Notes under the pieces: generated by a model
Seen by the model: only the letters and a program-made list of their open reading frames with translations
Told to the model about the DNA's origin: nothing
Databases searched by the model: none
Source: Beroe forskalii
Lineage: Eukaryota > Ctenophora > Nuda > Beroida > Beroidae
Reading direction: 5' to 3'
DNA length: 64,000 nt
Assembly: GCA_011033025.1 (NCBI GenBank)
Contig: WFMF01000009.1
Location: 744,001 to 808,000 of the forward strand
Part shown: positions 23,765 to 43,319 of the stretch, one piece after another
How the letters are laid out: every line of letters starts with the position of its first letter
Position numbering within the stretch: position 1 is the first letter of the stretch
Position numbers and translations under genes: made by a program

Positions 23765-24174
23765 CTGGTAAAGTGTGTGATATCTACGGCACGGAGCATC
23801 TCCTGCGACTCTTCACTAGGATTGGAGAACTGCTGGCCTTCACTGAGCTCGACAACAACGCAATCTCCATCCTTCAGAAGTACCTTCACCAACTACTAGC
23901 CTTCATTGGTGAGTAGGAAAGGGAGAAAGATGAGGGTTAAATTGGTAGCAAGATTTGTTATACTCCACCAGTTTCACAATTAGACTCCTATACTCATTAC
24001 TCCTATATATCATTGATAAAATGTAGCTATTGATAAGCAAAGAATGTGGTATCAGCATAAACCCCATCCCTCAACTGACTTAACCAACCCTCAGACATGC
24101 ACAGAGACAAATATCTGGACTCCTCAAACTACGTAATAGCAACTCCAGACTACTTGAGGCGAGCTGGCGTCTAG
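23765..24174 (+). CDS. MRG-domain protein (MRG15/MORF4L1-like), last two exons
   Basis: Exons 23765-23908 and 24095-24174, joined by a GTGAGT...CCCTCAG intron. The first reads GKVCDIYGTEHLLRLFTRIG followed by ELLAFTELDNNAISILQKYL. This matches the conserved YGxxHLLRLFxRIG..LAxT.LD....LL..YLH helix region of the MRG domain. The second exon gives YLDSSNYVIATPDYLRRAGV and a stop, the expected C-terminus (family pattern FSxSDYxxAPPEYxRKAV). Known family role: MRG15 is a chromodomain/MRG subunit of the NuA4/TIP60 acetyltransferase and Sin3-type complexes that reads H3K36 methylation in the nucleus. The chromo-barrel and first half of the MRG domain were not found upstream, so the gene is partial here, either with distant exons or 5' decayed. 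Splice phases are consistent (2 bases, 47 codons, 1 base, then 2 bases). The stop codon lies within a repeat (see 24145-24321). Confidence 0.75.
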
Positions 24175-24321
24175 CCAGACTACCTGAGGCGAGCTGGCGT
24201 CTAGCCAGACTATCTGAGGCGAGCTGGCGTCTAGCCAGACTACCTGAGACAAGCTGGCGTCTAGCCAGACTACCTGAGGCGAGCTGGCGTCTAGCCAGAC
24301 TACCTGAGGCGAGCTGGCGTC
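24145..24321 (+). repeat. 30-bp tandem array seeded on the MRG stop-codon peptide
   Basis: Six copies, each encoding PDYLRRAGV plus TAG in the first five. The first copy is the genuine end of the coding exon; the remaining five lie after the stop. The period is exactly 30, so frame is kept, and the last copy loses the TAG (GTCAAATTAAAC). Confidence 0.9.
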
Positions 24322-24992
24322 AAATTAAACGAGCTGGAATTATGAAGAACTGTTGTGAGACAACTTATGAAACCATATAATATGGGAGGCTGGGAGCTGA
24401 AATATGCCCCAATGAAGCAGAGAGATTGCAGATCAATCGGTCTGATTGTTCGAAGCGGGCGTTTAGCAACACCATCGAGACTTTCTGAGATCAGACAATT
24501 TGAAATCTCCTCCGGTCGCAATTCTACCTTAGTAATTTATTCGTTTGTTCAGAATTTCTATCGTATTTTAATGCTGCCAATTCGAAATATTCAAGTCAAG
24601 TTCGTGCCATTCCCCAGACTTTTAAATAAGGCAAGGAATAAACAATACATCATAGCAAGGCTTTCCTTGCAAACATGCAAATTACCTTGACTTGAGCTTT
24701 TAAATTGCTACGAATAGGTGCTGACAGGCGCAGTACAAGCATTTTGTACTCGTAAACATGTTGTTATTTGTTGTTATTGAATGCCTTCCAATCCTTTGTG
24801 TACATTGACCCTTTGTGTACATTGAGCCTACTCTAAACGACTTCACCCAGGTTTCTGGTTTACCCCAGTATAAGCTTTTATCGTTCCAAGCATCACCTCT
24901 TTACCTTTGCACTTTGCACATGGTTTTGCCATTTCACTAAGACCTCACTATGTAACTTTTCTAGTGTTATTCATTAAAGTTCAGCTGTCCCA
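24322..24992. other. 3' flank of the MRG gene; nothing else recognised
   Basis: A frame at 24355-24690 has no recognisable domain. Part of the segment is probably the MRG 3' UTR and downstream flank. Confidence 0.4.
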
Positions 24993-25136
24993 GGTGCCTC
25001 TACCTTTTGAGGCGCGGTGTATTACGCCGTGCCTAGGTACTCAATTGCGGCATGCAAAATATTTTAAACGCAAAGCCCCTTAACAAAAGCTCCCAAGCGC
25101 GGCGTAAAACGCTGCGCCTCAGAAGGTGGAGACACC
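24993..25136. mobile_element. Foldback element, about 144 bp with about 45-bp arms
   Basis: It starts GGTGCCTCTACCTTTTGAGG and CGCGGTGTATTACGCCG, and ends with the approximate complement (CGGCGTAAAACGCTGCGCCT then AGAAGGTGGAGACACC). No target duplication is obvious. Confidence 0.7.
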
Positions 25137-25154
25137 ACGATGATTCATTTTTCT

Positions 25155-26790
25155 GCGCTTAACTTCTTCACTATTTAGGGGTACACGACTAACTTCTTCA
25201 CTATTTAGGGGTATATGACTAACTTCTTCACTATTTAGGGGTACATGACTAACTTCTTCATTATTTAGGGGTACATGACTAACTTCTTCACTATTTAGGG
25301 GTACATGACTAACTTCTTCACTATTTAGGGGTATAGACTAACTTCTTCACTATTTAGGGGTATAGACTAACTTCTTCACTATTTAGGGGTAAACGACTAA
25401 CTTCTTCATTATTTAGGGGTACATGACTAACTTCTTCACTATCTAGGGGTAAACAACTAACTTCTTCACTATTTAGGGGTACTAGACTAACTTCTTCACT
25501 ATTTAGGGGTACATGACTAACTTCTTCACTATTTAGGGGTACACGACTAACTTCTTCACTATTTAGGGGTACATGACTAACTTGTTCACTGTTTAGGGGT
25601 ATATGACTAACTTCTTCACTATTTAGGGGTACACGACTCACTTCTTCACTATTTAGGGGTACATGACTAACTTCTTCTCTATTTAGGGGTACATGACTAA
25701 CTTCTTCATTATTTAGGGGTACACGACTAACTTCTTCACTATTTAGGGGTGTTATGACTTCTTCTTCACATTTAGACTAACTTCTTCACTATTTAGGGTA
25801 CATGACTAACTTCTTCATTATTTAGGGGGTATATGACTAACTTCTTCACTATTTAGGGGTACATGACTAACTTCTTCACTATTTAGGGGTACATGCACTA
25901 TTTAGGACTAACTTCTTCACTATTTAGGGGTGACTAACTTCATCACTATTTAGGGGTACATGACTAACTTCTTCACTATTTAGGGTACACAGCGACTAAC
26001 TTCTTCACTATTTAGGGGTACATGACTAACTTCTTCACTATTTAGGGGTACATGACTAACTTCTTCATTATTTAGGGGTACATGACTAACTTCTTCACTA
26101 TTTAGGGGTACATGACTAACTTCTTCACTATTTAGGGGTACATGACTAACTTCTTCACTATTTAGGGGTACATGACTAACTTCTTCATTATTTAGGGGTA
26201 CATGACTAACTTCTTCACTATTTAGGGGTAAACGACTAACTTCTTCACTATTTAGGGTGTTTTATTAACTTCTTCACTATTTAGGGGTACATGACTAACT
26301 TCTTCACTATTTAGGGGTACATTCTTCACTATTTGACTAACTTCTTCACTATTTAGGGGTACATGACTAACTTCTTCACTATTTAGGGGTACATGACTAA
26401 CTTCTTCACTATTTAGGGGTACATGACTAACTTCTTCACTATTTAGGGGTACATGACTAACTTCTTCACTATTTAGGGGTACATGACTAACTTCTTCACT
26501 ATTTAGGGGTACATGACTAACTTCTTCACTATTTAGGGGCATGACTAACTTCTTCACTATTTAGGGGTACTAACTTCTTCACTATTTAGGGTACATGACT
26601 AACTTCTTCACTATTTAGGGTACATGACTAACTTCACTATTTAGACCAACTTGTTCACTATTTAGGGGTACATGACTAACTTCTTCACTATTTAGGGGTA
26701 CATGACTAACTTCTTCACTATTTAGGGGTACATGACTAACTTCTTCACTATTTAGGGGTACATGACTAACTTCTTCAAATTTGAGGGGTA
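25155..26790 (+). repeat. 30-bp array of 3'-splice-site-like units upstream of RANBP3
   Basis: About fifty units of the form GGGGTACATGACTAAC followed by TTCTTCACTATTTA. Each unit contains a branch-point-like ACTAAC, a pyrimidine-rich TTCTTCACTATTTAG acceptor, and an ATG six bases after the AG that opens an eight-codon frame (MTNFFTI, stop). The last unit is altered to TTCTTCAAATTTGAG, which turns the short frame into the start of the RANBP3 reading frame at 26762. On the minus strand the array reads as VPLNSEEVSH decapeptide repeats, an artefact of the 30-bp period. Confidence 0.9.
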
Positions 26791-29700
26791 CATGACTGGG
26801 TCGCTGAAGCGCCACCCCTCTGAGGAAAGCGAAGAAACTCCGTCATCAAAGCGCCAAGAACCCCTCCCTCCCGATACCACCAACCCTCCTGATACCTCCA
26901 ACGCCCCTGAATCCGGAGATTCACCAGACACCTCTGATTCCATTCCTCCAGCTGAATCCACAGCCCCAGACACCACTGAATCCACTGAATCCCCAGTCAC
27001 AGCCTCTAACACAGGAGCTCCCTCACATCCAGTAGCCGATGCTTCCCCAGCTACATCAACAGATGATGCCCTAGCAGCGTCCCCAAACCTAGAAACCTCA
27101 GTTCAACCCTCAGACCCAGCCTCAAAAGAACCCTCAGAAGACCCAGCCTCGACAGCAGATGTCCCCAAGCAACCTCCCCCCTCAATATCGATAACTGCCC
27201 CTCCTACCATCTCAATAACCGCCCCAGTAGAAGCGCCTGCCAGTGATGGGGTGCCATCTGAGATTCCTCCTGCTGACTTAGCCCCCACACCCCCAGACAC
27301 CCCTCCAAAGACTGCTCCCAGTGAGGTCCCTGAAACCCCGAATTGTGAGGTCCCTGAGCCCAGTGGGGTCACTGAAACCCCTACTACTGGGGTCGCTGAG
27401 ACCCCTTCCGGTGGTGTCTCTGAGACCCCTTCCAGTGAGGTCTCTGACCCTCCTTCAAGTGGTGTCCCCCACCCCGTCCTATCGCCTGCTAGTAAGTTGG
27501 AGGGGGCATTGAGGAAGGGTCGGAGCGAGGTTAAAGTGAACGGAACAGAGAACTCCATCCTGACTAGCGGCTTCTCCCTGGCAGGCTCCTCCGCAAACCT
27601 CTCCCGCGCAGGTGATACTCTTTGGGTGCTGTTACCCATTTGTGTGCAGAACGCTCTATTGAAAAAGACTTTGATAAAGACGCGCGAAATTGTGTGCTTT
27701 TGACGGAATTTATAAAGAAAGTTGAAGCGCGCAGAGGAAATCCGCGCGTCTTTCTTTATCGAGGCCTCTGTCAATCAAGCGGTCTGCACACATATATTGC
27801 GTGATATTCTTTGCATTGCCGCTCAGTTTTCATGGTCGCTCGTGATCTTCATCTTACAATCAAAGCTATGTAATACAGGCATTTATTTATGGTATGCTTT
27901 CGATTGTCCATCGTTGCCACATGTCTTATTGTTCTACAGAAGTTTAACTCCAAACACTTTCCGCAGCCCCCACTGTGAACGGAGGTGGCAGCACGAGTAT
28001 CTTCGCCGCCGCTCTCGCCAACTCTTCCTCTGTTGCTGGCGAAATATTTGGCAACAAATCAAATACCTCTGGCGCTGGCGGAATCTTCGGCAGCAAATCA
28101 AATTCCTCTGGTGGCGGAATCTTCGGCAGCAAATCAAATTCCTCTGGAGGCGGAATCTTCGGCTCTTCCTCAAACTCCTCCTCTGGCGTTGGTATATTCG
28201 GTGGAGCTCCCAATGACTCTGGTGGAGGCGGTATTTTCAGCGCTGCATCTGATAAAAGTAGTGGAGGTGAGCTGCATGTGTTACCTTGTTGTCTTGACCT
28301 TATGTTACCGTAGTCGTTTTCTGGTAATCGGTAATATGTACGTTACATTAAGACCAGCTGGTGGCAAAATAACGTTCTGCAGTGCTGCCCTTATATACTC
28401 AATGTTTTGTTCATGTATTGGACAATACTGTATTACTCTATATTGGGCAATACTGTATTACTCTGTATTGGGCGATTCTTTATTGCTCTATATTGGACGA
28501 TTCTGTAGGGAACAGCTGGGTTTGCTCTCAGGGAGCAGCTGGGTTTGCTCTCAGGGAGCAGCTGGGTTTGCCCTCAAGGAGCAGATGGGTTTGCTCTCAG
28601 GGAACAGCTGGGTTTGCTCTCATGGAGCAGCTGGGTTTGCTCTCAAGGAGCTGGGTTTGTTCTCAGGGAGCAGCTGGTTTTGCTCTCAGGGAGCAGCTGG
28701 GTTTGCTCTCAGGGAGCAGCTGGGTTTGCTCTCAGGGAGCTGGGTTTGCTCTCAAGGAGCTGGGTTTGTTCTCAGGGAGCTGGGTTTGCTCTCAGGGAGC
28801 AGCTGGGTTTACTCTCAGGGAGCTGGGTTTGCTCTCAAGGAGCTGGGTTTGTTCTCAGGGAGCTGGTTAAGGTTTTTCTTTTGAAGATGTTGGATTTTTC
28901 TTATTCCATCAAAAATTAAAACAAACTTACGGAAATTATTTCTTAATGTAGGCGCAGAAGGAAATTTTTACTTAGATTTAATAAATCTTAAAATCTACCG
29001 TACCATAACTTTTACTTTTTACGAATTTTGGCTTCATTTTCAGCTTGAGAAGCAGTATTTTGATATTTCCATTGATTTGACAAATAATTTTAGAACTTGA
29101 ACGACCGTTTTAACTTTTAGTTTTTATGTGAAATTGGATTTAGTTTGGTTTTATGAAGGAGTAATACCATTATGTCATTTCCGTAATTATTGCCCAGTTG
29201 GATCCCAGTTGGATTTGCTTGGTTCTTTGGAGATACATTTAATGAAAGGTGTTTGCAGTCTCGGGCTTTTGCTCATGGTGTCCATGGCTACTGCACTTAC
29301 ACCTCCAAACATTATCTACATACTATTGGATGACTGGGGCTATCAGGATGTAGGCTTCAGAGATTCTAACATTCTCACCCCAAACATGGACAAACTGGCA
29401 CGTGAAGGAGTCATCTTACAAAACCATTACGTAACCCCCATCTGTGGTCCAACCAGAGCCTCTCTGCTGACGGGTCGCTATCCAATACGAACTGGATACT
29501 GGAATGGGAATCATGGTGCAGCTGTTCAATGGGGACTCCCCCTGGATGAGACCACCATGGCAGAAATGCTGTCCAGCCGAGGGTACTCCACGCATGCCAT
29601 CGGAAAGTGGCATCTTGGCTTCCACACGGAACAACATCTGCCAGTTGGACGAGGTTTTGACACTTTCCTCGGATTTGTATCGAGTTGTGATCAGGATCAT

Positions 29701-32700
29701 TTCCAGCACAGAACAAAATCGGGAGGATATGATTTGCGCTTGCAGTACCTTGGTGCAGAGGATGAAGTGAAAGATGAAGTGCTTTACGATATGAAAGGAG
29801 TGTACAACGCTGATATCTTTACCAACCGAACACTGGACTTGATAAAATCCCACGATCCCTCTGAACCATTTTATACTTATCTTGCATATGCCAATGTTCA
29901 TTCCCCTCTTCAAGCACCCCAGGAGGCGTATGATCAATACACTGGACACTTGAGTGAGAATACACCTCACGAAAGGAAACTAGTGGCTGCCATGGCTTCC
30001 ATTGTTGATGAAGGAGTAGGGAGAATAGTGGCTGAATTAAAGAAGACCGGGCTTTATGACAACACAATACTGGTGGTGAGTAGTGATAACGGTGGTCCAG
30101 GCGAATATCATTCCAACTATCCTTTACGAGGATTCAAACGGAGTGTTTATGAAGGAGGGGTGAGGAGCATGTCTTTCGTTCACAGCCCTCTTCTCTCACT
30201 GACTGGCTACATTAATAGCCAGGTTTTCCATGTTGTGGATTGGTACCGGACATTCCAACGGCTCTCAGGTGGAGAGGATGCTAGAGAGGAGAACGAGGGA
30301 AAAGCTGGAGAGGAATTCAAGTCTGAAGTACAACTAGACGGGGTCGATATATGGGATGCAATCAGCTCTAACCTGCCCATCCTTCGAAATGAAGTCCTCC
30401 TTAATTTCGGTCATGCTGATTTCTGTCATGATTGTCCCAGGAATAAAGGACATCCTCCGGACTTTGGTTTTGCAATCCGCAGTGGCAACTGGAAGCTCGT
30501 TGAAGATTCGATCAATCCAGATACATCCTACAGTGCACCAAATGGTTCAATAGTCGAGTATGAAGATCTGGCAGAAAGCCAAAGCCTTCCAATACAGCTG
30601 TACGACCTGTCAAGAGATGAACGCGAGCTGAAGAATGTTGCAGCGGATCACCCCGAGGTAGTGGAGCGGCTTCAAAACCGGAAAGCGTATTATAAGGGCC
30701 TTATCAGACACCTGTACCCTGCAGAAAATGGTCTTAATATCATCAATGATACCACATACTGGTGGAGCTAGATTGTTCTTCAAATGAAGTCACGATAAAT
30801 TGATGCTTCGAGAGCTTCGTTTCTTCAGACGTACTTCAGAAGCCTAAGACAAATATTTGATGATTTTAGACTTGAAATATATTATTACTCTATTGTAATT
30901 TAGAAATCTGTGATATGTTATAGTTAATAAGTTTCTTGAATTTTTCAATAAAATACTGATTTTTGCGTCAATAATCAATAAGTTACTCAAAGACTGAATA
31001 TACCTCAGAGATATCAATATGTTACTCAACGACTTAACACTTTACCATACCTCAGAGAAATCTAAAGAATCAGTTTGCGTCTTGATGATGTTCTCTTTCT
31101 CTAAGTCACTCTATTGTCATGATTTGTGAAAGCCATCATGATAATGTATCTCAGCTGATTCATGATTGTACAAATCAAATCCGCTGCATTTCATAAATTA
31201 TGGGGGTTGGGGGAAATTACTAAAATTCATTCATTCTTTCATTGCAGTAAAAGACGTATCTGATACACAGGAGGAGAGGTTATAAAATTCGGGCCATAGG
31301 AAACGCCTGGCCTTACTAGTCCTGCTGGGTGCTAGCTCAGGCGTAATGTTTACTATCTTTTCCTTGTGATTATCTTTTCCTTAGGGTTGACGAGAGAAAG
31401 AGAAACAAGAGTTTGAGTCAATAATTAATAAATAATAACATCAAATGTAAAAGATGCAATGCACTGTTGGCAAAATAAAGTTCTGCAGTGCTGCTGAGAG
31501 CTGCCCTTATATACTCAATGTATTGTTCATGTATTGGGCAATACTGTATTGCTCTATATTGGGTAATACTGTATTACTCAATATGGAAGGGGCGTAACCA
31601 GGGGAAGGCGACACAGGCGGCTACCTCCCCCTTTTTGGACAGTCCACCATGTGAAATGTCGTACCTGGGGACACCTCTCCTTCACTGAGGGACTCTGGCA
31701 GTGTTTAGCGGTATCTCTCTGCTTTCTACTACTCTGGCAGTGTGTAACTGTATCTCTTCAGGGTTCGTGTTTGGCGCCAATCTGTCCGACAGAGTCGTCA
31801 CGCCCAAGAAGGGAGAGGAGACCGAGTCTAAAGAGGAGGAGGAGAAGACAGAGGAGGATAAGGAGGAGAGTCAGGAGGAGGCAGCATCCTCAAAAACATC
31901 ATCCTCAAAAACATCGCTGAAAGAAATAGAGGTGAGACAACAGAGTCGAAATGAGGAATAAGGCTTGAAATAGGGCTGCTACTCAGTCAATCTACTACCA
32001 GTATCCAGTGCCGAATGCCGGTGACAAGTGAAAAACCTGTTCTCCCCCCTCACTCCTACAATTGCAGGTGTCAACAGGTGACATACCAGTCCCCTCACTC
32101 CTACAATTTCAGGTGTCAACAGGTGAGGAGGGTGAGAAGGTGGTGATGCAGGTGGCTTGTAAGCTCTACCAGTTCTGTCCCCTCACTAAGAACTGGATCG
32201 ACAGAGGAGCAGGGAATCTGAAGCTGAACGAGAAGGAGACTGAGGAGGCCGTGACGTCACGCATTGTCTTCAGATCTAAAGCTGTCATGAAGGTACATTT
32301 GAATGCATTGGAATGTACGATAATACATACTCCAATTCTCTGTTGTTGGAACTGATGTCACACTATTTCTCCCCATTACACTTGCCTAACTAAGGCATCC
32401 TTTTAATTCCCCACCTCTATAACTCCCCACTCCCTCACCCCCCCTCCCATCACCCCACTTCCCCCCCCCCTCCCCTCACCTCCTCTCACCCCCTCACCCT
32501 GCAGGTGATGCTGAACTCTAAGATATTCGCGAGTATGATCATTAACCGAGCTAACCTCACCCCCCTCACCTCACCCCCCTCACCTCACCCCTCCTCACCT
32601 CCAACTCCTCACCCCCTCACCCTGCAGGTGATGCTGAACTCTAAGATATTCGCGAGTATGATCATTAACCGAGCTAACCTCACCCCTCTCACCTCACCTC

Positions 32701-33775
32701 ACCTCCTCACCTCACCCCCTCACCTCACCCCTCCTCACCTCCAACTCCTCACCCCCTCACCCTGCAGGTGATGCTGAACTCTAAGATATTCGCGAGTATG
32801 ATCATTAACCGAGCTAACCTCACCCCCTCCCCCTCCCTCACCCCCTCCCCTCACCCACCTCAGCCCTCACCCCTCCTCACCCCCTTACCCTGCAGGTGAT
32901 GTTAAACTCTAAGATATTCGCGAGTATGATCATTAACCGAGCTAACCTCACCCCCTCATCTCACCTCACCCCTACCCCCCTCACCCTGAAGGTGATGCTG
33001 AACTCTAAGATATTCGCGAGTATGATCATTAACCGAGCTAACCTCACCACTATTCGGATATCTGGAGTTGATCTGCACGATGAGAAGTTCGTTACTTACC
33101 TCCTGAGATGCTCCAGGAACGAGTGCGACAAGTGAGTCTTCACCCACATTTGTATTTTACATTTGAACTGTAGTGGGTAATTGATGTGACAAGGAGTTCA
33201 AAGCGAACTCCTTTAATTTGTGATTTAACTTCCCGCCTATGTTTGTCTTAATTTCTTATTAAACGAGCTACTGGTGCACCATTGTACGTATTAGACAGTA
33301 TTGCCCATGTTCTCGAATTTTGGCACTCTCTTCCAACTCTCTGTCTTCTAACATGAGAATGTTTTGCCAACTCACCTAAAACCTTGTCAAGTTGCACACA
33401 GCTCTACTGAAGAGAAGGGAAATGGCACGCCAATACCAGGAGGAGCAGGGAGAAGTGAAGACTAAACCCCCCTCCTCCTCTACTACTACTCCTGGTAAAC
33501 CCTCCTCCTCATCTCTTGCTGGGGTCAAAACAACCCCAGGCGCCAAGAAGTCTACTGCTCCTTCATCAACACCCCCTGAGGGCGCAGAAGCAGGGAAAGG
33601 AGATAAGAGTGAAGGAAAGGAGGAGGAAAAGGAGGAGAATAGTGCAGCTGAGAGCGAGGAAAGTCCGTCAAAGTCCGAAGCGAGCAAGGAGAGTAAATCA
33701 GAGGGTGGGGATATAGCTAACGGAGCGAAGAGTAAAAGCAGCACATCAAATGAGGAATGTTCTGCAGTCCCATGA
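26762..33775 (+). CDS. RANBP3-like Ran-binding protein (six exons)
   Basis: Exons: 26762-27611, 27967-28266, 31762-31931, 32113-32292, 32992-33131, 33392-33775, about 674 residues. Exon 1 encodes a Ser/Thr/Pro-rich region with LKRHPSEE and SSKRQEP basic patches, possibly an NLS, and VSETPSS-type repeats. Exon 2 encodes four to six GGGIFGSKSNSSG (FG) repeats. Exon 3 has FVFGANLSDRV, the RANBP3 signature, then an acidic stretch. Exons 4-6 encode the RanBD1 domain (about residues 441-560; CKLYQF, NWIDRGAGNLKLNE, SRIVFRSKAVMKVMLNSKIF). The tail is acidic and Ser/Lys-rich. Known role: RANBP3 is a Ran-GTP-binding cofactor of CRM1/exportin-1 in nuclear export. Start: ATG at 26762 or in-frame ATG at 26792. 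The exon 5/6 junction is off by one base with canonical splice sites (see findings). The human protein is somewhat shorter and, as I recall, lacks tandem GxFG repeats, so NUP50/Nup2-like is an alternative name, but the FVFG..L.DRV motif favours RANBP3. Confidence 0.82.
27967..28266 (+). repeat. FG-repeat coding minisatellite (RANBP3 exon 2)
   Basis: Tandem 33-39-bp units encoding GIFGSKSNSSGG and variants (EIFGNKSNTSGAG, GIFGSSSNSSSGV, GIFGGAPNDSGGG, GIFSAASDKSSGG). GxFG motifs are the nucleoporin-type docking sites for transport receptors; here they sit N-terminal to a Ran-binding domain. Confidence 0.75.
28361..28470 (+). repeat. Direct repeat, left copy, flanking the nested arylsulfatase
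   Basis: GTGGCAAAATAACGTTCTGC through GCCCTTATATACTCAATGTT and two to three TATTGGGCAATACTGTATTA subunits. The matching copy is at 31466-31583. Confidence 0.8.
28508..28866 (+). repeat. About 23-bp minisatellite (GCTGGGTTTGCTCTCAGGGA)
   Basis: Sixteen or so units GGGAGCAGCTGGGTTTGCTCTCA, some lacking the 6-base AGCAGC part (17-bp form). TTTGCTCTCAG|GG resembles a splice acceptor. It lies in RANBP3 intron 2 between the left direct repeat and the arylsulfatase. Frames open in all three phases are artefacts. Confidence 0.85.
29242..30771 (+). CDS. Arylsulfatase (ARSB-like sulfatase), intronless, nested in RANBP3 intron 2
   Basis: 509 residues from ATG 29242, chosen because it gives a hydrophobic signal peptide (MKGVCSLGLLLMVSMATA) followed by the sulfatase strand PPNIIYILLDDWGYQDVGFR with the metal-binding DD. 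The catalytic signature CGPTRASLLTGRYPIR (residues about 68-83) contains the Cys that sulfatases convert to formylglycine (C-x-P-x-R). GKWHLG, the typical second sulfatase signature, and SSDNGG (metal-binding D-N) follow in order. Length and motif spacing fit the arylsulfatase B/I/J group, lysosomal or secreted enzymes that remove sulfate esters from glycosaminoglycans or other sulfated glycans. Several N-x-S/T sites agree with the secretory route. It lies wholly within the 3.5-kb intron between RANBP3 exons 2 and 3, same strand, with its own AATAAA at 30947. An intronless body suggests a retrocopy or an ancient intron-poor family; exact substrate unknown. Confidence 0.9.
   Translation: MKGVCSLGLLLMVSMATALTPPNIIYILLDDWGYQDVGFRDSNILTPNMDKLAREGVILQNHYVTPICGPTRASLLTGRYPIRTGYWNGNHGAAVQWGLPLDETTMAEMLSSRGYSTHAIGKWHLGFHTEQHLPVGRGFDTFLGFVSSCDQDHFQHRTKSGGYDLRLQYLGAEDEVKDEVLYDMKGVYNADIFTNRTLDLIKSHDPSEPFYTYLAYANVHSPLQAPQEAYDQYTGHLSENTPHERKLVAAMASIVDEGVGRIVAELKKTGLYDNTILVVSSDNGGPGEYHSNYPLRGFKRSVYEGGVRSMSFVHSPLLSLTGYINSQVFHVVDWYRTFQRLSGGEDAREENEGKAGEEFKSEVQLDGVDIWDAISSNLPILRNEVLLNFGHADFCHDCPRNKGHPPDFGFAIRSGNWKLVEDSINPDTSYSAPNGSIVEYEDLAESQSLPIQLYDLSRDERELKNVAADHPEVVERLQNRKAYYKGLIRHLYPAENGLNIINDTTYWWS
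30947..30952 (+). terminator. Poly(A) signal of the nested arylsulfatase
   Basis: AATAAA 176 bases after the stop codon, within the RANBP3 intron. If it were used on RANBP3 pre-mRNA it would truncate that transcript. Confidence 0.55.
31466..31583 (+). repeat. Direct repeat, right copy
   Basis: GTTGGCAAAATAAAGTTCTG through GCCCTTATATACTCAATGTA and TATTGGGCAATACTGTATTG subunits. Same order as 28361-28470, with an extra CTGAGAGCTG. Confidence 0.8.
32055..32130 (+). repeat. Duplicated acceptor of RANBP3 exon 4
   Basis: CTCACTCCTACAATT(G/T)CAG followed by GTGTCAACAGGTGA occurs twice, with AG ends at 32066 and 32112. The second continues into the real exon (GAGGAGGGTGAG); the first runs into CATACCAGTCCC. 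The period is about 46 bases. Confidence 0.8.
32505..33048 (+). repeat. Five copies of the 5' part of RANBP3 exon 5, each with an acceptor
   Basis: A 57-base coding segment (VMLNSKIFASMIINRANLT) starts at 32505, 32628, 32768, 32896 and 32992. Each is preceded by a C-rich polypyrimidine tract and CTGCAG, except the last, which has CTGAAG. Only the last copy continues into the rest of the exon (TIRISGVDLHDEKF). Copy 4 is in frame with copy 5 with no stop between; copies 1 and 2 are in frame with each other. Confidence 0.9.
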
Positions 33776-35855
33776 ACTGTTCCACCATACAGCAGAATGC
33801 CATTTCCTCCAAAATATAGCCTCAAATCGCACATATCCTCAAATCATAATCCTCATTACATAACGCTAAGAACAGTTTTTCCGCTATAATATTTGTAAAA
33901 ACGGGTTGGATTTACCTACACTGGAGTGAAGTCGAAAGGAATTAATGCTAAATGCTAGGAAATGTTTTGTTTGTAATGTGCGTACGCTAAAACACCGACA
34001 TGGATTATTTAGGATGGAGTTAAAACTAAATGCTCACTCATTCCAATTTAAAAATGCGCAATGAATCACAGAATATTTGAAGCACTATTTGATGCTGATT
34101 TCAGATTGATATCGTGTCGAAGTGGGTCCAAAATCTGGCATCAATTAAACCGCGGTTTTCTTATAATTCCACGCCACTCCATGTTTCAATTTTATCTTCG
34201 TTTTTAAATTTTAATATTTTATCACTGTTCACGTTATTGAAATGATGGCTGAATAATAGTTAAGATATTTGTTAACTGGATTTAACACAGTCTGTACATG
34301 TTTATGCGAATATCGTCTCGGTCTTCAGCCGCTATAAATCCAGCGAATGTTTTTGTGACGAACTAAACAATGGTTAATATGTCTATTGACTGTGATAGTG
34401 GAGTATTTTCCAAATTATGAAGACTTCATCTTAATATGCAGTAGTCTTTTTGTATCAGAACGTTGAAATTACTTGCGTGTACTCATTAGTCAGAAACAAA
34501 TTTTCAAAAAGAGGACAACGGGCCAGTGTACAACCAGTTATCCGGTATTCCTTTTGCAAAACTGTCCCATCTGACATCTTATTCAATGAGCTGCATAACA
34601 ATTGCAGTTCTGTTCTTGAATGAGATGTCATTCCTATCAACGTGGCCTTTTCTACGTCCCCATTCCTGTTCACGTTGACCGACCGAATTCCTTCAACGCG
34701 GCACTTTTCCCACGGTTTCTTCCTAATTTCTACAAAATCTATAGAAGAACGCGCGTGCGCGCACTAAACTAGTTGCCGCGCGTTACGTTTAAGACGCCAG
34801 CAAAATTTTGTATTCGTGGATCTGGCCACGTCAGCAGATTTTGCATCATCACCTCAATCGTGCAGTGAATCCACGTTGCAATGTGATAAATGGGAGCATT
34901 TGGGGGTGTATTCCAACCTGCAAACCCATTAAGGTCTGCAATACTGTGATTTGCCACAGTTTGGGAGAAGGGAGCCCGGCTTATCACCTAAACTTGAATT
35001 TCAGCAACAAAATTATCAGCTAATCGGCTTGCTTAAACATTTTACTTTAATTTTTCCTAACATTATTATTTTCCTAATATTATTATTTCGTTAAATCTGT
35101 AGGAAGGGCGAGAGTTGGGCCCGTGATACGTGTATAAGTCTACATATGCTGTTTCTCAAGTAACAACTACAGATCAGCTAGGCCTTTAACTGGTTATATT
35201 TCATCTAGAAGAATTTATCTTAAAACAGAAGTCCATGGATTTATCAATTTGAGAAGATACAGATTTGGTGAACTAAGAGAAAACCAAATTCTTCACATTG
35301 CATGAAAATAAACAAAAATGATTTACACAGAATTCCATAATAAAAAAGTATAAAATAAAGTAGTCAAATCTTATTATGTAAACAACCTTAGTAAGAAATT
35401 GAGACGCTTCCGATCAAAATACAATCAAAAAGAGGTTTTTGAATGTTATATCTATTTACATAACAATATAACTGACAAGTGTATCGCTTGATAAAAATAA
35501 TTTAGTTTTTGGTTGTTTTAACCTCTGTATTATTATAAATACCCCGTTCTGGTAAAAATGATAAAATATCTTATAAAAATTAGTAGCAGTATCAAGTCAT
35601 CTTCATACTCACTTTACTAATTCACTACTTAGAATCCTTGGCCTTTGAGGACCATGGAAATCTGGCAACAAACAGAATCCCACTAAATTATTCTTCCTCA
35701 ATTGTTCCCTATGAGACAATACAAAATCCACTCAGAGTTTAATAAAAACAAATAACTTCAAAGCGCAGTTGGAAAGGAGAATGCTTGAAGACACACCCTC
35801 ATGATAAAACCTAGAGTTCTGCTGACAAGGATATCTAATACAAGAGAAGGACCCT
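33776..35855. other. Intergenic: convergent 3' ends of RANBP3 and the FKBP gene
   Basis: No exon or RNA recognised. Short frames such as 34455-34673 lack domains. A small GC-rich patch (about 34745-34800) resembles the GCGCGC material elsewhere. Confidence 0.45.
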
Positions 35856-38640
35856 CTAAAGTTCGTCGTGTTTTCCCTTTTTAGGGCCGCTGAACTCATT
35901 CATATCCACAAACCCGTCCTCGTCTGTGTCCTCCAGTTTAAAGATCTCATCCACTACGTTGTTAATCTCACTCTGTCCTCGGAGCGTCACAGTGCGTCCT
36001 GAGATAACACAAGGTTAATAAAGCGTCACAGTGCGTCCTGAAATAACACAAGGTTAATAAAGCGTCACAGTGCGACCTGAAATAACACAAGGTTAATAAA
36101 GCGTCACAGTGCGACCTGAAATAACACAAGGTTAATAAAGCGTCACAGTGCGACCTGAGATTTACATGATTGTGGCACGATCACATAATTAGGGGGGATT
36201 ATCAGAATCAACCTCTCGAATGCAATCTTTTTCTTCTTAACATGATTCAGATGAAAGCCCCATTTGATCTCGAACTTGCCACTTGAAAACGAAAGGTATT
36301 CGAAATGTTGCATTTATTAAGGAACATGATAAACATTAACCTGTTTCCAGAATGAACTCTGCCATCTCGTCCTTACTGATCTTCTTGTCTTGGTTCTTAT
36401 CTATCTTGGCGAATATGTTAGGGGGCGTCTTACCCTTCTGGATGTGGATCTGAAACAGAGTTATGTAAATATTACAACAAGAGGCGTATACATCGCAACA
36501 TTAACAGAAGAAACAGAGCGAACCCTGAATTGTTAGTGAAAATTACAGCACAATAATCGCGAAGCAGACTTTGATTAGTGAGCTAAATTCACGAGTTGAA
36601 GCCGAGTGCAATTAGTGCAATAGTACCACTGGGGGGCGTCAGATTAGTGTATTGCCCCACGACACAACTTAGCAAATGATTGGTGGACTGCTACTGGAAA
36701 ATTTATTGAGAAACAGATCAACGGAATGAAACATGCCGAGGCATTTACATTCCTAATGTGAGTGCTGAATGTTAGTACATTACTCGACAAATTTGAATAG
36801 TGCCGGCTCGGCCCGGTAACATGACCCAAAACTTTGAATTGACTGAATTGCAGATACTGAAATAACCAGAGACTTGAAACGCTCAGTTCACGGAGTGTAG
36901 CCTCCACATTGCATGAACTGGAAGTTTCAACTCGGTATGTGGCTCAGTTCCTTCCCCAGGTCAGTACAAAGTTTTGGGTCACGTGACCGAACCGGCACTA
37001 TTCAAATGCGCCTTGTTCAGTCAACTCACCACTTCCACATCGTAGATGAGGTCGGCACCGGGGGGCACGTTCTTGTTGTCCCCGAGTTTACCGTACGCTA
37101 ACAGGGCGGGAATGTGGAGTCTCCTCTTCTCACCCACACACATGCTCTGTAAACCTGAGGAGAAGGGGTTAGAGGCATTATACCATATATGGCATGATTG
37201 GGTGGGTTGAAATGCGCACGATCCACATTAGATCAGTAATATTTCCTGTGTGCTTGCGGTATATATGCAACTTATGTCCCTGGAGGTGTGGGGAGAAGCT
37301 TCGTGCCTTGCCTGGCTTAATACGGTGGATGTCCTTGCTGTACGGCTTGTTAAACTTTTAAACAAGGAACTGAAACCGTAGGGCTCCGTACAGGCTTTGC
37401 TCTACACCTTCTGGTTATAATGTTGCGATATGAACGCCTCTTGTTGTAATACATTTCGATAGGGTGCCCTCTATGAGGACTACAGAAAAATATAAATGTC
37501 TGTAACGTTGCCCCGCTGCACGGAAATCTTTAGTAAAAGGCGAAAGATTTATTTGTGATGCAGTGAGACCAGACTGCCTGCTAAGGCCTACATTAGCACT
37601 ATCAAGGGAGGGTGGAAATATATCCTTGTGGTTGAAGAATGGATGAAATAATAATTCAATCAGATTGGATTTTGGATGTTTCTATTGAAAACTTATGTAG
37701 ATAACGATAATTAACTCAAATATTATGAAATTGGGTGTTAATAAATCTTTATAAGGAGAAAATAAATTCATATTTGAAAAATAAATTTTGTGTACGAATG
37801 TATTGTGACAGCTAAGTCACATGAATATTCTTAAAGTTATTTGTCATGCAAGCCTCTCTCGAGTACTTTGAAGTTTGATCATGTAACCATGCCCTATGCT
37901 ACCTCTCTCAAGTATTGTATAGTTATCAATAATCATGCATCTGTTTTAACAATTAACATCTCACTTTGAGAGCTGGACAGGAATGTACGAGACGAAGTCG
38001 AGTCAGTTGTGCAGCTCGAAAAGTTGTGCAGCTCGGAAAGTTGTGCAGCTCGGAAAGTTGTGCTGCTCGAAGTGTTGTGATGCTCGAAAAGTTGTGCAGC
38101 CAGAAAAAGTGAATACAGTGAGTTTTATCCATGTCCCAGTTTATGTTATAGTTTACCTCTCTCCAGTCCTTTGATCATGTAGCCATGTCCCAGTTTGAAG
38201 GAGGAAGGTTTCCCAGTGTCGTGGGAACTCTCGAATCTGTCGAGGGAGTTAGCAAGGAAGCCGTGGAAATCTGCTGTTAACAAGTCCCCGTCTTCTGCTT
38301 TCTTAGAGCAGTCTTCACCTGAGGGGGACAAGAGGTGTCAAATAGGGGGGAAATGCATTCAAGTATTCGGAGATATCAGACAATATTTTCCAGTTAAATT
38401 ACAAGAAGTATACCTGGATGGCAGAAAAAATTAATAGTCAGTCAATAAATTGAAGATACTGTAATATCTCCGGATTCAGTAATCCACCCAACAACACTCA
38501 CCTCTTCTGAGCACATCCACCTTCACCCCCTGCATGTCGTAGGAAAAGAGGACCTCCTCTGTCTCATTGTACTCGTATACTTCGTTACAGATAACAGATA
38601 CAAACAGCAACACACTGATGTATAGTGTCGCACAAACCAT
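35856..38640 (-). CDS. ER FKBP-type peptidyl-prolyl isomerase with EF-hands (FKBP14/FKBP7-like)
   Basis: Minus-strand exons 38640-38502, 38318-38157, 37154-37030, 36449-36341, 35998-35856; phases agree and all introns are GT-AG, giving 225 residues. Signal peptide MVCATLYISVLLFVSVIC. The FKBP domain follows (about residues 36-125: VDVLRRGEDCSKKAEDGDLL, FKLGHGYMIKGLERGLQSMC, VGEKRRLHIPALLAYG, IYDVEVV). Two EF-hands follow, with loops DKNQDKKISKDE and DTDEDGFVDMNE keeping the Ca-binding D/N/D/E positions. The C-terminus is KHDEL, an HDEL ER-retrieval signal. Known family role: FKBP14 and FKBP7 are Ca-binding prolyl isomerases that help fold procollagen and other secreted proteins in the ER lumen. 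The length is close to that of human FKBP14/FKBP7. The start was chosen at 38640, directly before the signal peptide; a plausible acceptor (GCGTTCCAG) ends four bases upstream. Confidence 0.92.
35984..36160 (-). repeat. 39-bp array: five copies of the FKBP last-exon acceptor
   Basis: On the minus strand each unit reads TTAACCTTGTGTTATTTCAG then G(A/T)CGCACTGTGACGC. The copy at 35984-36022 is the genuine acceptor and first 15 bases of exon 5; four more lie upstream at 39-bp spacing (36023, 36062, 36101, 36140). Use of any upstream copy would reach TAA within about eight codons, cutting off the second EF-hand and HDEL. Confidence 0.9.
36792..37006. mobile_element. MITE-like foldback in FKBP intron 3
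   Basis: The arms are TTTGAATAGTGCCGG(C/T)TCGG...ATGACCCAAAACTTTG and the complement at the other end (about 45 bp with a few mismatches and a small indel), around a loop of about 125 bases. No frame of interest. Confidence 0.75.
38002..38108. repeat. 17-bp tandem repeat in FKBP intron 2
   Basis: Six imperfect copies of AAGTTGTGCAGCTCGGA just downstream (in gene sense) of exon 2. Confidence 0.75.
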
Positions 38641-38689
38641 GGTCCTGGAACGCAGCAATACTTAAACCTTAATTTAGTTAATCGTTATT

Positions 38690-39054
38690 TAAACCACTAA
38701 AGTTAAGGGTACTCTAATCTTAAGTTCCACTGCACTATGATGTATGTATGTAGATGCGCTTCCGAAGATGCGCTGTGCCGAACGACTAGACTCCTCACAT
38801 TTAACAATTAAGTCTGAGGAGTAACGGTCGTGCCGTGAGCGGCGAGGCTGATATGTTGGCGTGCCAAATAGTCTAAATAGCAGAGGGCAGGTGACTATAC
38901 AAACTATTGAACGCTTAACTATAAGTGCCAGTTGGGTAATAAAGCCCAATGGCCTCAACTCGAGAAGTTATCTGCCTAACTGGCTTGAGCCGAAAACATA
39001 TGCTCAATTTCTTTTTAAGGCGATGAAAAAGGCAAATGCTTCTCCTCCATGATA
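38690..39054. other. Unassigned; ends in an (ATT)n run
   Basis: The plus-strand sequence ends CTTCTCCTCCATGATAAATT before an (ATT)n tract shared with the LINE tail. A frame 38861-39052 ends exactly there, which could mark the 3' end of an old retroelement on the plus strand, but no domain is recognised. Confidence 0.3.
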
Positions 39055-40523
39055 AATTATTATTATTATTATTTTTTTTTATTTCAAAATTCAAATTTTA
39101 CATGAAATATATTTCACAATGTCATTCAGGTTAAAATATTCTGTCATTCCTACTTAGCACAGAAAATATGAATCAAGTGCAAAATCTGGGCTAAACTCCC
39201 AACACAGCGTTAACCATTATTACAGGGAGGCCCGTCAAAAACATCAATCAATAAATAGGGTATAAAATAAATGATAACAATAATAATAAATAATTACGTC
39301 ATCTGATAAAATTAAATCACAAACTCACAAATAATATGGTTGTCAATTGTAATCATAGATTGGTATTTAAATTGTCACACTTAAAGTCCTAGGCCACAAA
39401 GAAATTACTTTTCTGCATCAAGACCATCATTTCGAAAAATACAAATTTGTTAATAATTTCTTGTATAAGGGTATTTTGCTCTTGCCTTACAACTTAATGA
39501 CCATCTAGTTCACAGACTGAGTAAATTGAATTAATCGGGCCAGTCTAGATCTGCTTTCCAAAGGAAAGTTTTGAGTTGTGATTTAAAGGTGGAGATGCTT
39601 TTAACTTGCCTAATACTATAAGGGATTTTGTTCCATATGACCATTGTTCTATAGAAAAATGAATTCCTAAAATTATCACAATTGGGCCTTATGGTACATT
39701 TTAATCTTGAACAATCCTCTTTGCTCATAATATCATGTGTACTTCTGGTGCTCCTTACTTCAGTATGTTTAATGATATGAAAGCCTTCTGGTAAGGTGAT
39801 GTTGATAAGAGAGTGTATGATTTTGAACATCATGATTTGGTCAGTTATGATAAATTTGTGTTTTATTGGAGGGATATTCAGGGTTTTCAGTTTATTATAG
39901 TATTCAGTATCACAGATATGGTCATGGGGACGGCCTTCAATCCACTTAATGGCCCGCTTTTGGATGGCCTCAAAACCACTGAGCTGGTTGGAGCTGACTG
40001 GATGCCAAATGATGGAGCAATGCTCAAATAAAGACCTAACTAGTGTAAGGTAAAGGTTCTTTTTGTCTTTTATCACAGGTGAAATGACAAATACGTGTTA
40101 CAAGTCCTAGACGGGAGCTTGCTTTAGATAAGAGACTGTTGCATTGTTCTGACCATAAAAGTCTAGAGTTTACTGTGACTCCCAGATCTACTTGAGATGC
40201 AACATAATCTATGTAAGTATTGTGAAGCTTGTACTGGAAGATTGTACATGGTAGATTATGGAGTATGTTTCTTTGGTTTGTTACAGCTAAAGCTTTACAT
40301 TTCGAAGGATGAAATTTCATCTTGTTTAGTACAGACCAGTTATGAAGATTATCTATGTCAGCTTGTAGAGCAAAATGATCAGCCGATATCTCAATTTCTC
40401 TCCAGATTTTTGTATCATCTGCATAAAGGGCGATGTTAGTTTCAGGACTTATACAGTCGAACATGTCATTAATGAATAAAACAAATAGCAAGGGACCTAG
40501 AATAGAACCTTGGGGTATGACCT
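39055..40523 (-). mobile_element. 5'-truncated non-LTR retrotransposon (LINE), RT C-terminal part
   Basis: Reading on minus from 40523: VIPQGSILGPLLFVLFIND, the conserved RT motif, then ALYADDTKIW with the catalytic YADD (about 40425), DLGV and, after a one-base frameshift in the A-rich run near 40065, LYLTLVRSLFEHCSIIWHPV and a C-terminal YRTMVIWNKIPYSIRQVKSI..FKSQLKTFLW to the stop at 39531. The layout is that of jockey/CR1-like LINE ORF2 downstream of the endonuclease. The 3' end is an A/T-rich tail with (AAT)n at 39055-39085. Truncation at the RT and the frameshift mean it is a dead copy. Confidence 0.85.
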
Positions 40524-40665
40524 ACAGTGCATAATAAATCCGGATTTTGGCACTACAGTGCGCAATAATTTATTACGCACAGTACCCTAGTGCCAATAGG
40601 GTTTTTGAACACATTGCAAAAACATGCCTGGAAGGTGCATAATGAAAAATTTCGAAGTTTATTGG

Positions 40666-40738
40666 GCTGTGATAGCTCAGAGGTAGAGCAACCGATGCAT
40701 TATCGCAGAGGTTGTGGGTTCAAGTCCTGCTCCCGGCA
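40666..40738 (+). tRNA. tRNA-like sequence (degenerate; CAT in the anticodon position)
   Basis: 73 bases with acceptor GCTGTGA/TCCCGGC (6 of 7 pairs, one a wobble), TA, a perfect D stem GCTC/GAGC, an anticodon stem with only 3 of 5 pairs, and T arm GTGGG-TTCAAGT-CCTGC (wobbles). The A box TAGCTCAGAGGTAGAGC and B box GGTTCAAGTCC are good, but position 33 is G, not T, and the anticodon stem is broken. A tRNA pseudogene or the head of a tRNA-derived SINE is more likely than a working tRNA. Confidence 0.5.
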
Positions 40739-40916
40739 ATGGCCCTTTGATTTTCAGATTGCTACGACACTATGTGCCTAACTGGGCATTACCACAGAAA
40801 GGCCCCATCACCCAAAAACATTAATAGAAAGGGCAAGTGGAAAGGACTGGTAGAAAGGGCTTAAAGAAAGGACTGGTGGCAAGTAATGGTCTAGAAATGG
40901 CTGATTAGAAAGGACT

Positions 40917-41390
40917 GGGTAAAAGGGCTGAGTAAAAGGGCTGAGTAAAAGGGCTGAGTAAAAGGGATGAGTAAAAGGACTGGGTAAAAGGGCTGAGTAA
41001 AAGGGCTGGGTAAAAGGGCTGAGTAAAAGGGATGAGTAAAAGGGATGAGTAAAAGGGATGAGTAAAAGGGATGAGTAAAAGGGATGAGTAAAAGGGCTGA
41101 GTAAAAGGGCTGAGTGAAAGGGCTGGGTAAAAGGGATGAGTAAAAGGGCAGGGTAAAAGGGCTGAGTAAAAGGGCTGAGTAAAAGGGATGAGTAAAAGGG
41201 CAGGGTAAAAGGGCTGAGTAAAAGGGCTGGGTAAAAGGGCTGAGTAAAAGGGCTGGGTAAAAGGGCTGAGTAAAAGGGATGAGTAAAAGGGATGAGTAAA
41301 AGGGATGAGTAAAAGGGCAGGGTAAAAGGGCTGAGTAAAAGGGCTGAGTAAAAGGGCTGAGTAAAAGGGATGAGTAAAAGGGCCGGGTAT
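40917..41390 (+). repeat. 13-bp tandem array (AAAAGGGCTGAGT)
   Basis: About 36 units with four common variants (CTGAGT, ATGAGT, CTGGGT, CAGGGT). The unit is not a multiple of 3 and has no stop on the minus strand, so three overlapping frames of 173-196 codons are open with one 13-residue peptide; these are artefacts. Confidence 0.9.
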
Positions 41391-41494
41391 TGTCCCATGA
41401 CCTCCCGCAGAGCAACAGTCCACCAACTGCTGAGAGGTGGGGATTGTATAGTTTATATCATTATATGATATACATTGCTGGAGGATACCTGTGC

Positions 41495-41645
41495 ACTGAA
41501 CATCTAGGTGTGACTCATTTTGATTTGGCTGTTCTTACATAGAATTTCTCAAGAAATCATGTCAAAGTTGGAGTCCAGAGTTGGAGAAAAGTCTTGCAGA
41601 TTGATGTGTTTTAAATGATTTATTCTTTAATTGTTGATACATAAT
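41495..41645 (+). repeat. 150-bp direct repeat, copy 1
   Basis: AGGATACCTG..CACTGAACAT through GATTTGGCTGTTCTTACATA and AAATGATTTATTCTTTAATT. Copy 2 is at 42412-42548. The SINE and the G/C-run hairpin lie between them. Confidence 0.75.
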
Positions 41646-41911
41646 TGACCATGTTTTCAGGATAATCATCTCTCAAGATGGAGTATGGGAGCATGATGTA
41701 TTTCATCATGTTAGTTGATGCATGCCACTTCTCATTTTAAATGCAGCAAGTTAAAGGATTACAAATTAGTAAATTACTAGGATCCATCAACTGGGCCTAT
41801 ACTTCTCTTCACCAAGTGTGGTACTTAATTTCTTGATGTTTAAGACCTCTATTCAGTTCAACCAGGTGGTCACTCATTCCATTACACACTTTTTCGAGCT
41901 AGTGGGGGCCA

Positions 41912-42148
41912 AGCCAGTGACGGTTAAGGAAGTGTAATCCATGCTTTCTTTGCCAGAGACTTCGCTGCAATGGGCAGCTCCTCATTTAACCCTCCCGCAC
42001 AGTTTCCTGTACGCTCGGCTGAGTGAACTGTGTGGCTGCTTAGGTGAGAGTTCTCACCCTTAGCACGGTAGGCAGGGCCGGGAATCGAACCACCAACCTC
42101 TCCATTGAAAGTATGACGCCTCAACCACTGCGCTACCTGGCCACTTGA
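41912..42148 (-). mobile_element. tRNA-derived SINE
   Basis: On minus, the head (42143 down to about 42065) reads GGCCAGGTAGCGCAGTGGTT with A box TAGCGCAGTGG and a perfect B box GGTTCGATTCC. It is followed by about 150 bases of unrelated body (CCGTGCTAAGGGTGAGAACT...). The tRNA cloverleaf is degenerate, as usual in SINEs. Confidence 0.7.
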
Positions 42149-42208
42149 ACTTGATTTTACACTTCATTTTGATGTTCAAATTTTTGAGTAAAACCCTAGG
42201 TAGGGCCA

Positions 42209-42299
42209 AGTCCCCCCCCCCCCTAAGATTTTTCTAGGGGGGGAGGGCTTTTCAAAACTAGAGGGGGCCTCCCCCCCTAAGGGGGGGAGGGGGGCATGT
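42209..42299. repeat. C-run/G-run foldback
   Basis: Alternating runs of 7-13 C and G (CCCCCCCCCCCCC, AGGGGGGGAGGG, GGGGGCCTCCCCCCC) that can form hairpins or quadruplexes. It resembles the ends of the element at 3531-4616 in composition only. Confidence 0.6.
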
Positions 42300-42411
42300 A
42301 GTCCCATGTGGTCACTGCACTTGACAGTGCAATACCCTGGTGCAGGGGGAGTCAACCTCATAAAAAGCTCTCACAATTTAAACACCCCGAAAGCTGAGGT
42401 AGGTATTGGAC

Positions 42412-42548
42412 TGAGGATACCTGAGCACCAATCATTTAAGTGTGACTCATTTGGATTTGGCTGTTCTTACATAGGATTTCTCAAGAAATCGTGTCAAACT
42501 TCGAGTCCAGAGTTTAAAATGATTTATTCTTTAATTTTTGATATACAT
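42412..42548 (+). repeat. 150-bp direct repeat, copy 2
   Basis: Matches 41495-41645 with a few substitutions and a deletion of about 27 bases. Confidence 0.75.
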
Positions 42549-43319
42549 TGCATGCAATAAGAGGAAATTACATCTCTATTGCTCTGTTCCACTGCTTTCT
42601 ACTGTTCCTTATCCCTTCTTGTTTCACCAAGGAATCAGCAAATTCAGGGAATATTCAAATTGACTTTCAAGTTTTATTGAATAAAAAATCAGCCAGAAAA
42701 CTTGCGACAAGTGGGGAGAGACAATAGCAATTTTCATGGAAAATGTCTAGGCCAGGTACACTGACTAAGCACTCTCCCCATTAAAGTGCGTGGAAAAATC
42801 TTGGAGGAGAGTGAATTTTATATAGCTTGAGAAAGCACCAAACATTCATAATGGATGGTGTATTGCAATAGCAGAATCAAATAATGAAAAAATAAAATCT
42901 GATATCAATCAATATTATATGATTCAAGGTTTAATAGGGAAGGAAAGTGATGATAAAATAGGTAAGGAAAATATTATGCAGTATTAAAACACATCTGAAT
43001 TATACAACAATATATCTGAGAATGGTTCCAGGACATTACAAATCACATGATTCATCACACAACCTATACACCTTACTCAAAATAGTTATCACTATGATCA
43101 AACTATTCCTTTGAATTCGAGAAAAGTTTCAGGCTCCAAAAACCAAAATCATACAACAATATATCTGAATTCAAAAATTTAATAAATTATAAAAACATCC
43201 CCTGTATGATAAGCAATAAGCCCTAAAATTCTATGTCAGTGTCAAATAGAAGGGTACAAACGTCTGAACAATGATTATATTGGATAACTTAGCAATAAAA
43301 ACACAATACAATTTATCTC
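42549..43319. other. No gene seen
   Basis: AT-rich with AACAATATATCTGA occurring twice; no exon or RNA recognised. Confidence 0.45.

Follow-up and report, generated by a model that had tools for sequence, protein, structure and literature searches.

Three introns of two neighboring genes in the ctenophore Beroe forskalii end in short tandem arrays whose units span the 3' splice site and the start of the following exon. They lie in a stretch of 64,000 nucleotides (the window; contig WFMF01000009.1, positions 744,001 to 808,000, here C1024:744001-808000, in an assembly of 216 Mb and 1134 contigs) and belong to RANBP3 on the plus strand and an FKBP gene on the minus strand. Judged by their structure, the arrays are of a known kind, the mirages of amphioxus, in a new lineage. 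We regard them as probably (at a probability of about 0.75) ordinary minisatellites in a genome rich in such repeats, a few of them having arisen by chance across exon edges. This reading rests on the frequency of arrays, their differing copy numbers, the lack of enrichment at acceptors, the involvement of start and stop codons as well, and the occurrence of the same structure in amphioxus.

Acceptor arrays in RANBP3 and FKBP

The gene names of a preliminary description of this DNA agree with Pfam: a Ran_BP1 match spans RANBP3 exons 4 and 5, the minus-strand gene matches FKBP_C with EF hands, and the gene upstream of RANBP3 matches MRG. The array positions listed in that description were likewise recovered by Tandem Repeats Finder (TRF) and by reading of the sequence (Table 1).

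The most elaborate case is the acceptor of RANBP3 exon 5, where a C-rich tract, an AG, and 57 coding bases are present five times (exon starts at 32505, 32628, 32768, 32896, and 32992). In translation, copies 1 to 3 lead into stops, copy 4 is in frame and would add 32 amino acids, and copy 5 gives the plain exon. The AG is retained in all five copies, as CAG in four and as AAG in one. The exception is the last copy, which reads CTGAAG both in the window and in a second copy of the locus on contig C110, while the four upstream window copies read CTGCAG. The acceptor consensus ranks CAG above AAG, and by this measure the copy that continues into the body of the exon does not have the strongest site. 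A CTAAC motif precedes the exon 5 acceptors; an AG intervenes in two of the five, and no claim is built on the motif.

At exon 4, the acceptor is doubled (exon starts at 32068 and 32113), and use of the upstream site would keep the frame and add 15 amino acids. This doublet is absent from the TRF rows at score 50, and the other arrays of Table 1 were found by TRF. The FKBP last exon has five possible starts (36154, 36115, 36076, 36037, and 35998), each after a CAG, the copies having been located by searching for CAG plus the exon start. From the four upstream acceptors, translation ends at RTVTLY-stop inside the unit, and only 35998 leads to the full C terminus (...KHDEL-stop). Across the three introns, two of the nine upstream acceptors are in frame and open, and seven are not.

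TABLE 1 Arrays and associated exons (window positions)
Feature	Position	Strand	Basis
MRG minisatellite, 30 bp, 5.9 units, repeating the last ten MRG codons with the stop (PDYLRRAGV-stop)	24145..24321	+	TRF, translation
Minisatellite, 30 bp, 55 units, directly 5' of the presumed RANBP3 start codon	25160..26797	+	TRF
RANBP3 first coding exon, presumed start ATG 26792	26792..27611	+	Reading frame; 87% match on C100
Two intronic minisatellites (25 bp, 23 bp), away from exon edges, for comparison	28416..28863	+	TRF
RANBP3 exon 4 acceptor, doubled, 45-bp unit	32046..32130	+	Sequence reading
RANBP3 exon 5 acceptor array, five copies	32440..33048	+	TRF, translations
Functional body of RANBP3 exon 5, the last copy	32992..33131	+	Open to exon end only in copies 4 and 5
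FKBP last exon, EF hand, C-terminal HDEL	35856..35998	-	Translation, Pfam
FKBP last-exon acceptor array, 39 bp x 4.5, five acceptors	35983..36158	-	TRF
Minisatellite in FKBP intron, 17 bp, away from exon edges, for comparison	38005..38100	-	TRF

Copy number in a second copy of the locus

Much of the region has a counterpart elsewhere in the assembly. By "second copy" we mean the matches on contigs C110 and C100, a term that covers allele and duplicate alike. C110:417028-428519 matches window positions 31052-42423, comprising RANBP3 exons 3 to 6 and FKBP, and there is an extra short match at 42534-42799. Apart from scattered short matches, homology to C110 is limited to 31052-42799 of the window and ends on both sides within the 100-kb segment of C110 compared. 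C100, a separate contig of 11,761 bases, matches RANBP3 exons 1 and 2 (87%) and parts of the MRG region. RANBP3 exons 3 to 5 differ between the window and C110 by 10 synonymous and 1 nonsynonymous changes in 488 bases.

The arrays are unstable in length between these copies. The window has five exon 5 acceptors and C110 four; the corresponding numbers are two and one for exon 4 and five and one for the FKBP last-exon unit, and the array 5' of RANBP3 has 55 units in the window and one on C100. The difference runs the other way at an MRG exon acceptor near 23760, which is single in the window and present three times in the second copy. Since the exon 5 array occurs in both copies, an assembly artifact is unlikely for that array, and the other differences point to gain or loss since the copies parted. 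The arrays use different units, two of which are unique to their locus, lie on both strands, and differ in number separately from one another, in keeping with the preliminary view that they did not arise in one event. In the same region, a 13-bp array at 40895-41383 comprises 37.5 units in the window against 76.8 on C110.

Arrays at a stop codon and a presumed start codon

As previously noted, the MRG array is seeded on a stop codon (24172-24174). The second-copy MRG exons on C100 (L057) look scrambled, with only scattered small pieces resembling the 30-bp MRG unit.

The long array before RANBP3 had been described, at about 50 units, as a fourth array containing a gene's own acceptor. Its size and position hold, and the RANBP3 exon 4, exon 5, and FKBP arrays do carry acceptors; this one is probably the product of amplifying a stretch that ends with the presumed start codon, and we do not count it among the acceptor arrays. 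Its units have a consensus ending in ATGAC, the last of them continuing into ATG 26792. On C100, the matches to window 24835-25190 and 26767-26912 share 31 bases, equal to one unit (TTAACTTCTCCACTATTGAGGGGTACATGAC), and this single unit ends in TTGAG where the window units have TTTAG. GAG is a poor splice acceptor, and no exon upstream of the array is known. The array contains 50 ACTAAC and 51 TTTAGGG motifs, both in most units. On C100, no stop interrupts the frame (read by eye) that begins at an ATG 45 bases farther upstream, so the 30-bp unit may derive from former 5' coding sequence. From the start of the array, 37 ATGs precede ATG 26792, and 36 of them are closed by an in-frame stop before it. 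If transcribed and kept, the array should hinder translation; it need not do so if it lies 5' of the transcript start or is spliced away.

Array density and further examples

Array and acceptor statistics were obtained from 352 kb sampled out of the 216 Mb. This sample contains 154 arrays with a period of 9 to 200 and a length of at least 45 bp, which corresponds to 4.4 per 10 kb and 11% of bases. With all TRF rows of period 9 to 300, arrays cover 13% of the sample. In window 24-41.5 kb, array coverage is 22%. A concentration of arrays in this part of the window beyond the minisatellite-rich background was not confirmed. Among the 12 filtered TRF arrays in window 24-41.5 kb, eight touch none of the listed gene edges and two lie on acceptors.

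Pattern searches of the whole assembly returned 39 exact matches to the RANBP3-array unit and four matches, with at most two mismatches, to the FKBP unit, in each case at their own locus only. For these two units, an origin as copies of a dispersed satellite was accordingly rejected.

Multiplied exon edges were also found outside the window. The acceptor array with the most copies is at a kinase-bearing locus (L030:30-870), where about 20 bases of a predicted exon start occur in 13 tandem copies, 12 of them directly after an AG; the exon peptide has no Pfam match, and the exon remains a prediction. Another acceptor is present in three copies about 599 bases upstream of the window (C1024:743402). 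An OGT exon at L003 (Glyco_transf_41) has its acceptor in two copies, the upstream one reading into a stop, and shares the C-rich tract of the exon 5 array. Donor sides are affected too. L005:1380-1900 carries a donor-side array with a G-rich intron tract, a mirror image of the C-rich acceptor arrays, and at the donor of a predicted myosin exon (L053:3199-3260), a 22-base GT...AG stretch stands twice head to tail, each like a tiny intron, although the donor copy reaches only 72% identity. At the level of structure, the earlier suggestion of many competing acceptors holds for three introns of the window and for further loci.

Comparison of acceptors with other positions

The preliminary description had suggested a process that amplifies short segments at intron-exon borders and had proposed a genome-wide scan of acceptors against random and donor positions. 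A scan of this kind was run on the sample, with exons taken from a home-made predictor. On reversed sequence, the predictor returned 27 internal exons against 97 on the real sequence at score 8, and 8 against 77 at score 12. It overlooked the true RANBP3 exon 5 acceptor, and the FKBP last exon fell below the score limit. Counts are therefore given as computed and with these two acceptors added by hand, an addition that favors the border-targeting view.

For the comparison with random points, 114 exons were used, at a score limit of 8 after discounting repeat-masked bases. Recurrence was defined as 36 bases at 80% identity within 600 bases, and control points were random noncoding positions nearby, within 1 kb. 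Tandem recurrence was found at 4/100 predicted acceptors, 1/93 donors, and 37/600 random points. L003 is among the four acceptor positives and L005 is the sole donor positive; both come from loci picked for their likeness to the C-rich tract and hence form a biased sample. With the two known positives added, acceptors stand at 6/102 against 1/93 donors (Fisher P = 0.12). Direct overlap with TRF arrays, in the same exon set, was seen for 1/100 acceptors, 2/93 donors, and 57/600 random points.

Points within introns gave a similar picture. In this count (32 bases; L001-L008 and the C110 segment excluded), 3/85 acceptors and 0/82 donors recurred, compared with 4 to 7 of 80 to 84 points lying 100 to 400 bases into the upstream intron. 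Nearer points gave 3/85 at -70, 6/85 at -40, and 1/85 at -20. Downstream of donors, recurrence was found at 1 to 3 of 78 to 80 points at 8 to 150 bases (1, 1, 2, 3, 3, and 3) and at 4/78, 7/78, and 6/76 points at 200 to 400 bases.

Decoy motifs outside predicted exons, counted with the same exclusions, recurred more often than true sites: 8/88 acceptors against 116/700 acceptor-like motifs drawn from 940 (Fisher P = 0.09) and 6/85 donors against 109/700 donor-like motifs drawn from 5126 (Fisher P = 0.03), even though this count kept predicted exons that are themselves repeats, which raises the true-site numbers. Finally, the 154 array units were scored for splice motifs against their reversed sequences. 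At scores 2 to 5, acceptor-like motifs numbered 25 versus 19, 9 versus 9, 4 versus 3, and 3 versus 2, and donor-like motifs 22 versus 30, 9 versus 12, 2 versus 5, and 0 versus 3; a clear enrichment of the acceptor motif in these units is thus absent.

In this sample of predicted exons, acceptors show no excess of tandem copies over random nearby points, intron interiors, or decoy motifs, so the proposed amplification of borders was not borne out. Acceptors look like background or lie slightly below it, and donors are lower still. The pattern fits arrays that arise at any position and are then lost from exon edges, possibly to a lesser degree at acceptors. A modest acceptor excess may still be compatible with a small sample and predicted exons.

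Possible origin and use of the arrays

An account in terms of ordinary minisatellites would run as follows. A tandem duplication of a short local stretch would come first, and the array would then grow or shrink by slippage or unequal exchange. Where the duplicated stretch happens to span the 3' end of an intron, extra upstream acceptors with partial exon copies, i.e., a mirage, would result. Such arrays could survive selection since the copy that is continuous with the remaining exon retains its own acceptor. If the spliceosome chose one of the extra sites, most upstream copies would introduce a premature stop, and a few would add amino acids in frame.

Several points weigh against this account. 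The acceptor counts exceed the donor counts in the comparisons with random points and with intron points, although not significantly, and in the array units acceptor-like scores are at or slightly above those of reversed sequence while donor-like scores are below. Selection against arrays at exon edges could mask more frequent births at acceptors. The sample covers 352 kb out of 216 Mb, and the exon predictor was home-made. In addition, the intronic half of the FKBP unit has no fuzzy match in the searched stretches of either copy, so this array is not a plain duplication of the C110 state.

An amplification process biased toward short segments at intron-exon borders, for example through slippage favored by the C-rich 3' intron tract, would explain why three introns of two neighboring genes are affected, why further acceptor arrays turn up at L030 (13 copies), C1024:743402 (3), the L003 OGT exon (2), and the second-copy MRG exon (3), and why acceptors outnumber donors. 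The C-rich tract common to the exon 5 and L003 arrays, with its G-rich counterpart on the donor side of L005, would suit it as well. L003 and L005, however, were chosen for that very likeness. Together with the missing excess over random points, intron interiors, and decoy motifs, the lack of clear acceptor-motif enrichment in array units, and the arrays on start and stop codons, this makes such a process unlikely in our judgment. Even less probable is that use maintains the extra acceptors, as alternative 3' splice sites giving isoforms or, in the 55-unit array, as acceptors for trans-splicing or for an intron of the 5' untranslated region. In its favor, the upstream acceptor of exon 4 and the fourth copy at exon 5 are in frame, most 30-bp units combine ACTAAC, pyrimidines, and TTTAG, and the last exon 5 acceptor has CTGAAG where the upstream ones have CTGCAG. 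Against this, stops follow copies 1 to 3 of exon 5 and each of the four upstream acceptors of FKBP, and the second copy lacks arrays at exon 4, at FKBP, and 5' of RANBP3, its single 5' unit ending in TTGAG.

A bolder reading, which we consider less likely than not, is that a few percent of introns in this lineage have multiplied acceptors, many of them with a branch-like site, a pyrimidine tract, and an AG in each unit. Hundreds of young multi-acceptor introns, varying in copy number between locus copies, might then supply new splice forms or introns, with acceptors affected more than donors. If acceptor arrays do reach a few percent of introns, a figure hinted at by the small sample, the genome would suit measurements of how the spliceosome chooses among near-identical acceptors, and how often it fails, and could show whether repeats become new introns or isoforms. 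The result alone shows no new mechanism.

Relation to known systems

The amphioxus reports describe mirages as minisatellite-like duplications of the 3' end of an intron with the 5' part of the exon (PMC3087553). A globin gene there has six units in one haplotype and three in another, with both exon edges affected; the authors took reverse transcription-PCR to show regular splicing and offered a model of intron gain (PMC3087553). Mirages are also reported in TnC and PGBD5 (PMC3902484), and units measure 10 to 72 bp in Adh3 and 150 to 160 bp in globin (PMC3087553, PMC3902484). The Beroe arrays share the structural features. Units cross the exon-intron boundary at RANBP3 exon 4, exon 5, and the FKBP last exon; many keep the AG or GT signal (here the AG, in exon 5 and FKBP); copy number varies, between haplotypes there and between locus copies here; and donors are affected too. 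The Beroe arrays differ from the amphioxus mirages in their ctenophore lineage, in reaching 13 copies at L030, in standing alongside start- and stop-codon arrays, and in being known from DNA alone. The mitochondrial data of the assembly fit a ctenophore: the COX1 on a contig of 13,339 bases requires TGA to be read as Trp and looks very divergent, and ARAGORN detected no tRNA in the 2.8 kb scanned, while ctenophore mitochondria are devoid of tRNAs and fast-evolving (PMC6991124). If the correspondence is true, mirages would be known beyond lancelets, in an animal lineage far removed from them, which would speak for a general side effect of the birth of minisatellites and against a trait peculiar to lancelets.

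A study of human genes in segmental duplications describes variable internal tandem repeats at exon-intron boundaries, where 27 intron modifications are reported (PMC2812944). These repeats likewise have minisatellite units of about 30 bp and vary between recent gene copies; unlike in our case, transcripts back up the new introns and alternative forms. The Rogers model, as cited in PMC3087553 and PMC2812944, derives intron gain from tandem duplication of an AG/GT stretch; a potato RdRp gene is a related case (PMC4974935). The shared idea is that new intron borders can come from a tandem duplication at a splice-like site, whereas in Beroe existing introns gain spare acceptors and no new intron position was seen. 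In Caenorhabditis elegans, the minisatellites linked to alternative splicing are intronic regulatory repeats and not copied splice sites (PMC4039745). A search of the literature library used here found no report combining minisatellite, splice site, and ctenophore.

Other features of the locus

RANBP3 intron 2 contains an intronless sulfatase gene (29242-30768; Pfam Sulfatase, 9.9e-54), which lies wholly inside the intron on the same strand. In intron 1, about 160 bases at 27632-27795 recur at about 40 further places genome-wide and show weaker opposite-strand self-matches, suggesting a palindromic element resembling a miniature inverted-repeat transposable element. Genome-wide, many protein kinase domains are contained whole in a single open frame, whereas most myosin heads are broken up into numerous pieces, a contrast that looks as if one set had spread by retrocopying.

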